The position numbers were made by a program, and so were the translations under genes. Source: Leucothrix mucor DSM 2157 (GTDB lineage Bacteria > Pseudomonadota > Gammaproteobacteria > Thiotrichales > Thiotrichaceae). Taken from it: 64,000 nt of DNA. A model generated the notes under the pieces. It was given only the letters and a program-made list of their open reading frames with translations. It searched no databases and was not told where the DNA came from. The DNA is taken from contig NZ_ATTE01000001.1 of the NCBI RefSeq assembly GCF_000419525.1, positions 3,058,501 through 3,122,500 on the forward strand, written 5' to 3'. This document shows positions 2,309-28,892 of the stretch, piece after piece (position 1 is the stretch's first letter; each line of letters opens with the position of its first letter).

Positions 2309-2370
2309 GGCAGCCGAAAATTATTAAACATCATGGCTTGGCCAACCACGCGCCAAGCCTAACCATCCGC

Positions 2371-2423
2371 CAGTAAGCCAGTAAGCCAGTAAGCCAGTAA
2401 GCCAGTAAGCCAGTAAGCCAGTA
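2371..2423. repeat. 8-bp tandem repeat (CAGTAAGC), about 6.6 copies
   Basis: Six perfect head-to-tail copies of CAGTAAGC followed by a partial CAGTA fill most of the gap between two convergent genes. The last base directly abuts the stop codon of truC. No imperfection is seen between copies, which suggests recent expansion by slippage. Confidence 0.95.
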
Positions 2424-27680: not shown

Positions 27681-28892
27681 TTAGTCGGTTACCGCAAGAT
27701 TAAAGGTTGGCCTGCTACTCGCTGGGGCAGGCGCTTCCTGATATAACACAACAACTTTTGGTGGTGAGTTACTTGTCGCCTCGTCGCGATCTAAATAATC
27801 AGGAATACCATCGTTATCTGAGTCGGCCGTTGCGCCTTCCAGCTTAGTTAGTCGGCTATCGCCATCATCGTTAGCGTCCTGATAATTCGGTACACCATCA
27901 TTATCGGTGTCGTCATTTAACGGCGAGCCATCTCCATCCACATCTTCCAGACGAGTTAAAATACCGTCATTGTCATCGTCGTTATCTAAACGGTCGATAA
28001 TGCCATCGCGGTCGCTGTCTTGCGGGTGATTTTTATCCTGCCCTATTTCTGCAATATCTGGAATGCCATCTTGGTCAGTATCGTCACTGAAGACTTGTTT
28101 GGTCTTGGTGGCTAATTTGGCGTTGGCGTTGGCGTTGGCGTTGGCGTTGGCGTTGGCGTTGGCGTTGGCGTTGGCGTTGGCGTTGGCGTTGGATTTTGGC
28201 TTTGCTGCGAGAACGGTGCTAGTGCTTTCTAAGAAATCAGCAATACCATTTTGATCAAGGTCGGCCAGAGTCACATTATCATCAATGCCATCCCCATTCG
28301 TATCCTCACCACCGGTGGCATCCGCATCAAACTTATCATCTACTCGGTCGTTATCCTGATCAACTAAGCTTAAGCCCGCTTCGTCATGATCGAGAATGCC
28401 ATCATTATCAGAGTCTTTATCGAGGTAGTTAGCCAAGCCGTCTTTATCAGCATCGCTGGTCCCTTCGATGATAGAAGGAATGCCGTCGCCATCATCATCT
28501 TCATCCAGTAGGTCCAATCGGCCATCACCGTCAGTATCAAGCGGAACGTTATAATTACTCCCGACTTCCAGACCATCTTTTATCCCATCGCCATCAGTGT
28601 CGCTAAGCATTAGCTCAGAGCCAAAGCGCACCTCAAGTTCATCAGGTAAACCATCGCCATCGGTATCCGTTAAGTCGGTAATAGCAACAGGCTGTGGAAG
28701 CTTTTGTTTAGCTAACTGTGCTATGGACTCTGTCATTGCAGGGACTTTCTCAGCAAAGGCTGGAATCACATAAAAGCCTAACAGAAACAGCAATACCGAA
28801 GCCGCTGAAAAGGTCAGTAAATGGGCAAAGAATCGAATTAGCTGATGTATCCAGCGAGGAAGCAGTAAAGCAAATGAGTGATAATTTTTCAC
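27681..28892 (-). CDS. Exported Asp-rich (thrombospondin type-3-like) calcium-binding repeat protein
   Basis: A 403-residue protein with an N-terminal hydrophobic segment (FFAHLLTFSAASVLLFLLGF) ending in IPAFA|EK, a likely signal peptide. Residues about 75-225 and 270-380 hold many DxDxDGxxD units such as DTDGDGLPDELE, DTDGDGIKDGLE and DDDNDGILTRLED, like thrombospondin type-3 calcium-binding repeats. The two blocks are joined by an (Asn-Ala) linker of about 12 units from a perfect 6-bp microsatellite. The C-terminus is proline-rich and carries no recognised sorting signal. It may be a calcium-stabilised surface or periplasmic protein; the partner is unknown. It converges on recN. Confidence 0.8.
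   Translation of the reverse strand: MKNYHSFALLLPRWIHQLIRFFAHLLTFSAASVLLFLLGFYVIPAFAEKVPAMTESIAQLAKQKLPQPVAITDLTDTDGDGLPDELEVRFGSELMLSDTDGDGIKDGLEVGSNYNVPLDTDGDGRLDLLDEDDDGDGIPSIIEGTSDADKDGLANYLDKDSDNDGILDHDEAGLSLVDQDNDRVDDKFDADATGGEDTNGDGIDDNVTLADLDQNGIADFLESTSTVLAAKPKSNANANANANANANANANANANANAKLATKTKQVFSDDTDQDGIPDIAEIGQDKNHPQDSDRDGIIDRLDNDDDNDGILTRLEDVDGDGSPLNDDTDNDGVPNYQDANDDGDSRLTKLEGATADSDNDGIPDYLDRDEATSNSPPKVVVLYQEAPAPASSRPTFNLAVTD
28117..28192. repeat. Hexanucleotide microsatellite (TTGGCG)12 inside the Asp-rich repeat gene
   Basis: Twelve perfect copies of TTGGCG plus TTGG. Read on the minus strand it encodes alternating Asn and Ala. The unit is two codons long, so slippage changes the linker length without shifting the frame. 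Confidence 0.97.

Follow-up and report, generated by a model that had tools for sequence, protein, structure and literature searches.

The window analysed here is a stretch of 64,000 nucleotides from the genome of Leucothrix mucor DSM 2157, and on its minus strand, at 27681..28892, lies a 403-amino-acid open reading frame with a GTG start, a hydrophobic N terminus and two blocks of Asp-rich TSP3-like motifs. The hydrophobic N-terminal stretch (28752..28844, minus strand), which was recognised by eye and has similar counterparts in some orthologues, is a probable signal peptide or anchor, and from its sequence the protein is probably exported. The Pfam model for bacterial TSP3 (TSP3_bac, PF18884) gives 23.6 bits (E 4.6e-5) against a gathering cut-off of 25, and the NCBIfam equivalogs BamM, CglD, MtsC and MtsD give 35.8, 28.7, 15.6 and 21.2 bits against cut-offs of 315, 400, 350 and 800. 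Because the Pfam score is just below its cut-off and the four NCBIfam scores are far below theirs, we go no further than to name the protein TSP3-like. It shares repeated Asp-rich DxDxDG motifs with the bacterial TSP3 proteins (PF18884), MtsC, MtsD, CglD and BamM, but scores beneath every cut-off of these families; the motifs probably make it a calcium-binding-like protein. The two blocks are joined by a linker of 48 residues (28083..28226, minus strand, delimited by anchor patterns), which is probably disordered or flexible. A single-sequence AlphaFold2 prediction of the whole protein has a mean pLDDT of 50.9 and a pTM of 0.22.

Half of this linker, 24 of its 48 residues, is encoded by a tandem repeat at 28117..28192. 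Tandem Repeats Finder reports a period of 6, 12.7 copies of the unit TTGGCG and 100% matches, and direct reading of the same positions gives 12 full units plus four bases without interruption. On the coding strand, the minus strand, the unit reads AACGCC and is translated as 12 consecutive Asn-Ala pairs, residues 235-258 of the open reading frame. An earlier sequence-only reading had described an uninterrupted repeat of a two-codon unit that keeps the frame and sits in the linker separating the Asp-rich blocks, and in each of these points it was right. Such an array is far from what chance would produce: when the sampled genome was simulated three times with an order-5 Markov model, no array of at least 24 bp with at least 3.5 copies appeared, and four further simulations contained none of at least four copies at periods 4-9. 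Long simple sequence repeats (LSSRs) are defined by a unit of 1-11 nucleotides and a run longer than the genome would be expected to hold, and the window array is a run of this kind; it also follows the tendency, which is not a strict rule, that coding repeats have units that are multiples of three, its unit being six bases long and in frame. The linker repeat is thus of a known kind, a long simple sequence repeat.

To place the array in its family we searched 39 genomes, including that of L. mucor itself, for relatives of the window protein and obtained matches in 27. Loci from 13 relatives were translated, and the nine with two Asp-rich blocks were used to compare linkers, while four others (L016, L018, L023 and L024) were left out on account of a different C-terminal half. 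Within the short flanks fetched for the nine, recN was present in eight and dgt in four, each relative having at least one of the two; since recN and/or dgt also lie alongside the window gene, we take the nine to be syntenic orthologues. Their linkers measure about 35, 43, 63, 64, 65, 89, 90, 96 and 124 residues, with an error of up to a residue or two in lengths that derive from anchor patterns, and consist of ordinary Lys/Ala/Pro/Ser/Gln-rich sequence. A hexamer array was absent from all nine, so that, as far as nine relatives go, the array is specific to the lineage of the window. Since it is also perfect, it is probably recent, as had been proposed from its lack of interruptions. The comparison with relatives suggested at the time, for a degenerate form of the repeat, could be made, although what the nine relatives show is not a degenerate repeat but no such repeat at all.

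The same DNA word recurs in the genome in unrelated proteins. In the 5.19 Mb of L. mucor there are three long perfect TTGGCG arrays, of 12.7, 11.3 and 7.5 copies, and when four exact copies of the hexamer were sought in the 39 genomes only this genome and G030, which belongs to another family, were positive. The 11.3-copy array is read in the Asn-Ala frame close to the N terminus of an FG-GAP/UnbV_ASPIC protein, whose counterparts in the congeners G001 and G003 have a shorter N-terminal stretch and lack the repeat. The 7.5-copy array (45 bp, in stretch L010) is read in the Thr-Pro frame of a GDSL-lipase-like protein with a lipobox-like start, judged by eye, and the one close version of that protein, in G003, has an irregular Thr/Pro/Ser-rich stretch in its place. 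In both proteins the array follows an N-terminal hydrophobic stretch, again judged by eye. Because one of these arrays from the targeted search is in the Thr-Pro frame, it is the DNA word that recurs and not the peptide. In the same stretch, at L010 2972-3765, two adjoining short open reading frames resemble pieces of what we take to be one RtcB-like protein, apparently split. All three arrays are on the same strand, and a bias of strand or replication was considered; they lie on two replication arms, however, and the shared strand looks like coincidence (over 79 stretches the cumulative GC skew is lowest near 3.84-3.90 Mb and highest along a plateau at about 1.66-1.92 Mb).

Beyond this genome, a scan of named genomes of other bacteria found at least 118 stretches with at least six perfect AACGCC copies. 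Among the matches listed, 82 arrays at 80 loci, 66 are on the AACGCC strand (45 Thr-Pro, 17 Asn-Ala and 4 Gln-Arg) and 16 on the other, where frames were assigned by a longest-frame rule that can miscall in GC-rich DNA and 13 of the 82 arrays are near the end of a locus. These counts and frames indicate that bacteria often generate the AACGCC unit and translate it in different frames. No relative of the window protein was noticed in the frames around these arrays. The longest array among the matches listed is on a contig of Halomonas litopenaei (L071 1196-1855), with 110 perfect copies giving about 220 residues of Asn-Ala within an open frame of 2009 residues.

A census of perfect runs with periods up to 12 was made over 1,655,500 readable bases, comprising the window plus 80 stretches, each of 20 kb, with 79 set at intervals on the large contig and one taken from the small contig; imperfect or longer-period arrays fall outside its count. 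Seventeen rows for the L. mucor genome reduce to 13 arrays once two unreadable runs and two sub-arrays of the compound site in L256 are removed. These 13 have periods of 4-9, carry 6.9-20 perfect copies and are built from 12 different units, only ACCAGC occurring twice; by period there are one tetramer, four hexamers, one heptamer, five octamers and two nonamers, the compound site being counted once. That site (L256 30-156) consists of three related octamers that change along its length, and it is the sole clearly compound long short-unit array in the sample. The twelve simple arrays span 55-114 bp whatever their unit and the compound site 119 bp, for a mean of 82 bp with the compound site taken at 119. 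Tandem Repeats Finder returned 100% matches for all the simple arrays except the one in L194, which it extended by four bases at 98%; outside the 13 it found, in the same sample, arrays such as those in L189 (period 15, 9.9 copies, 96%) and L191 (period 18, 9.2 copies, 77%). The class of ten or more copies counted eight arrays against seven listed, the extra one being presumably the tetramer array recounted at period 8. Extrapolated to the whole genome, the census gives about 41 long perfect arrays.

Intermediate lengths are scarce. Leaving aside the sub-arrays of the compound site, the sample holds two perfect arrays of 3-4 copies (at least 20 bp), after which perfect arrays resume only at 6.9 copies. 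Tandem Repeats Finder lists a few imperfect short-unit arrays, for example that in L267 (period 9, 4.7 copies, 87%). In the draft genome of a genus mate, G006, 720,000 readable bases yielded no perfect array of at least six copies at a period of four or more, its five rows being four unreadable runs and one four-copy array. If the rate were equal in the two genomes, the probability that all 13 arrays would fall in the L. mucor sample is about 0.009, a figure to be read with the draft state of G006 and the uneven placement of its stretches in mind. In the assembly of another congener, G002, a gap of 62 N lies within the hexamer array of dnaX (L311 1289-1443), a sign that draft assemblies undercount such arrays.

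Genes were called with two versions of a simple codon-usage caller, which place 84% of the sampled bases in genes, and convergent gaps make up 13.7-14.7% of the intergenic bases. Convergent gaps hold eight of the 13 arrays and a gap between co-directional genes one; three are coding, and one, at the end of a stretch, has no assignment. At least eight of nine in convergent gaps has a probability of 1-2e-6, or 7.5e-6 for at least eight of ten, if either the array in L213 or the stretch-end array is counted against the pattern; three coding arrays among the 12 assigned has a probability of about 1e-5. The simpler caller missed the open reading frame around the array in L213, which left that array intergenic between divergent genes, whereas the long-ORF caller and a Pfam NERD match place it within a gene. 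The three coding arrays of the census are all in-frame hexamers: one in the window protein, one in the NERD-domain protein of L213 and one in DnaX before its tau C-terminal domain. The split by period among coding arrays (P 0.07-0.09) is weak when taken alone. Seven arrays have a period of 4, 7 or 8; six of them are outside called genes, one of the six overlapping a gene by its final four bases, and the seventh is without assignment. At L266 8210-8321 an octamer present in 14 copies in a convergent gap abuts a stop codon, and at L254 7341-7454 a heptamer of 16.3 copies, also in a convergent gap, ends about 30 bp from one; the heptamer covers two 71-residue open reading frames on opposite strands, both rejected by the caller. 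Five coding arrays are known in all, three of which (in the window, L009 and L010) are in proteins that are probably exported, judging from their sequences, so there may be a bias of coding arrays towards surface proteins, on a count of five arrays only.

Two sites allow a view of how such arrays change between species. In L. mucor the DnaX linker contains (ACCAGC)16.2, read as (TGGTGC)16.2 at L228 7673-7769, which encodes a long Pro-Ala run before the tau C-terminal domain. The DnaX linkers of congeners hold the same unit at 4.5 copies in G003, at 4.5 copies in G006 and, in G002, at 7.3 copies, then the assembly gap, then 8.2 copies, and in all four genomes the array precedes a WDEYDQM motif. 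In G003 dnaX carries a second array further on, of another hexamer in 11.8 copies. No hexamer array of at least three copies was found in the other 15 of the 19 dnaX loci, for two of which (G005 and G001) the matches cover only part of the gene. The second site, at 2369..2423 and without assigned strand, is a perfect octamer array between convergent genes, (GCCAGTAA)6.9, identified by Tandem Repeats Finder and the gene calls; it follows directly on the stop codon of a pseudouridine-synthase-like gene, and its other neighbour is amidohydrolase-like. G003 and G006, the two relatives seen to keep this pair of genes, lack the (GCCAGTAA) array. The copy numbers in DnaX and the absence at the octamer site imply that arrays come, go or change length on a species time scale. 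For the heptamer site of L254, the gene next to the array is matched within the genus only in G002, by a relative of 41% identity.

The reading that we prefer, and to which we give a probability of roughly three in four, is that the array in the window is a recent, lineage-specific slippage expansion in a linker, one of about 40 arrays that survive where they are cheap in a genome that is prone to slippage. Slipped-strand synthesis is a source of repeat arrays, and in this genome arrays of 4-9-bp units would form unusually readily by such replication slippage. Selective tolerance would then act as a filter, arrays surviving downstream of genes and above all in convergent gaps, which would be tolerant because neither flanking gene has its promoter or start site there; six-base units would be tolerated within linkers as well, because they leave the frame intact. 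Because the repeat adds Asn-Ala residues, its copy number would set the length of the linker, more copies giving a longer, uncharged and probably flexible one, with 24 residues added in the present case. Among possible repair defects behind the slippage, loss of mutS, recJ, the exonuclease I C-terminal domain or xseA is no explanation, since all four were found in the genome. What speaks against plain slippage is that arrays of 4-6 copies, which it predicts in larger numbers, are nearly absent. The missing intermediates would reflect either runaway expansion past a threshold or an origin in bursts.

Other explanations can be set against slippage and tolerance. The boldest holds that an active process makes perfect arrays of about 55-115 bp from arbitrary words of 4-9 bases, nearly at once and without stable intermediates, with a preference for convergent 3' ends that lies either in mutation or in tolerance, the hexamer linkers being coding by-catch; we regard it as improbable.

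A more limited form, in which each array arose in one event such as templated or rolling synthesis at a break instead of by gradual slippage, appears distinctly unlikely to us. It would account for the jump from fewer than 4 to at least 6.9 copies, with 13 arrays on the far side of that gap, and for the narrow 55-114 bp of the simple arrays irrespective of unit. Fast slippage beyond a threshold length would leave the same gap, however, and lengths outside the narrow range do occur, as in the 4.5-copy ACCAGC versions in two congeners, the mere 45 bp of the array in L010 and a few imperfect short-unit arrays, that in L267 among them.

About as doubtful is the proposal of the sequence-only reading that the array is a means of tuning the reach of an exported calcium-binding protein, kept as an evolvable adjuster of linker length. 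The unit is in frame, the array is perfect, placed in a linker and missing from the nine orthologues, and the two further TTGGCG arrays, in the FG-GAP/UnbV_ASPIC and GDSL-lipase-like proteins, also come after a hydrophobic N-terminal stretch. The orthologues, however, reach linkers of 35-124 residues without any microsatellite, so the family alters linker length by other means, and the 48 residues of the window protein are ordinary in that range. The claim is weakened further by the similar hexamer arrays in DnaX and the NERD-domain protein and by the census as a whole, in which 8 of 13 arrays are in convergent gaps and 3 of 13 coding, nine of the 12 assigned being non-coding; it is left unsupported.

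Phase variation is a far weaker candidate. Long perfect arrays are typical of contingency loci, in which changes in copy number switch a gene on or off, and the window array is long and perfect; elsewhere in the genome (CAAT)20, at L239 12748-12827, stands about 140 bp upstream of an rtcB-like open reading frame, with a TTGGCAC-N5-TTGCA in between that we take to be sigma-54-promoter-like. A contingency locus shifts a frame or alters a promoter, however, and judged on its frame the window array is not one, its two-codon unit being unable to shift the reading. All but one of the arrays with a period of 4, 7 or 8 (six of seven) are outside called genes, and eight of the nine assigned intergenic arrays are between convergent genes and away from promoters. 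A role as a switch is highly improbable for the window array. An assembly artefact is scarcely credible: repeats are known to mislead assemblers, but nothing specific points to an artefact here, the open reading frame is open on both sides of the array and aligns to syntenic orthologues, and 13 arrays of 12 units with different flanks occur in a genome of two contigs.

Set beside what has been described, the arrays of L. mucor are partly familiar. In the summary that PMC4679880 gives of Mrazek et al. 2007, prokaryotic LSSRs of the 5-11-nt class occur far over chance and many to a genome, those with units that are multiples of three are likely to be coding, and in most genomes heptamers outnumber every other class. 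A unit of six, a length far beyond chance and many arrays per genome are common ground with that summary, while our sample departs from it in that heptamers are one of 13, eight of the nine assigned intergenic arrays are convergent and no unit dominates. The TAACTGA direct repeats of marine Beggiatoaceae (PMC4679880) are likewise short direct repeats with many sets per genome. The GGGAATC-type heptamers of Xanthomonas and Nostoc are described in PMC4692102 as enriched outside coding sequence and frequently close to stop codons, with one G-rich unit, a preference for four copies and a place mostly between aligned, co-directional genes; the short units, non-coding position and nearness to stops recur in our arrays, which differ in having many units, 7-20 copies and a mostly convergent placement. 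According to PMC12699852, the average bacterial genome shows no enrichment in short tandem repeats. Among the literature matches listed for the TTGGCG unit, TSP3 linkers, dnaX repeats and repeats between convergent genes, no title or opening of an abstract reported this locus or a bias of many different units towards convergent gaps.

Taken alone, the repeat in the linker is nothing uncommon, and its worth lies in the entry that it gives to a genome in which array birth, a limit on length and selective tolerance can be weighed against one another; it is also a warning against inferring adaptive tuning from a single in-frame repeat. The interesting parts are the strong bias towards convergent gaps, the scarcity of intermediate lengths and the many unrelated units. 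If these were confirmed genome-wide, the question of why some bacteria carry long simple repeats would become testable by mutation accumulation in one organism.
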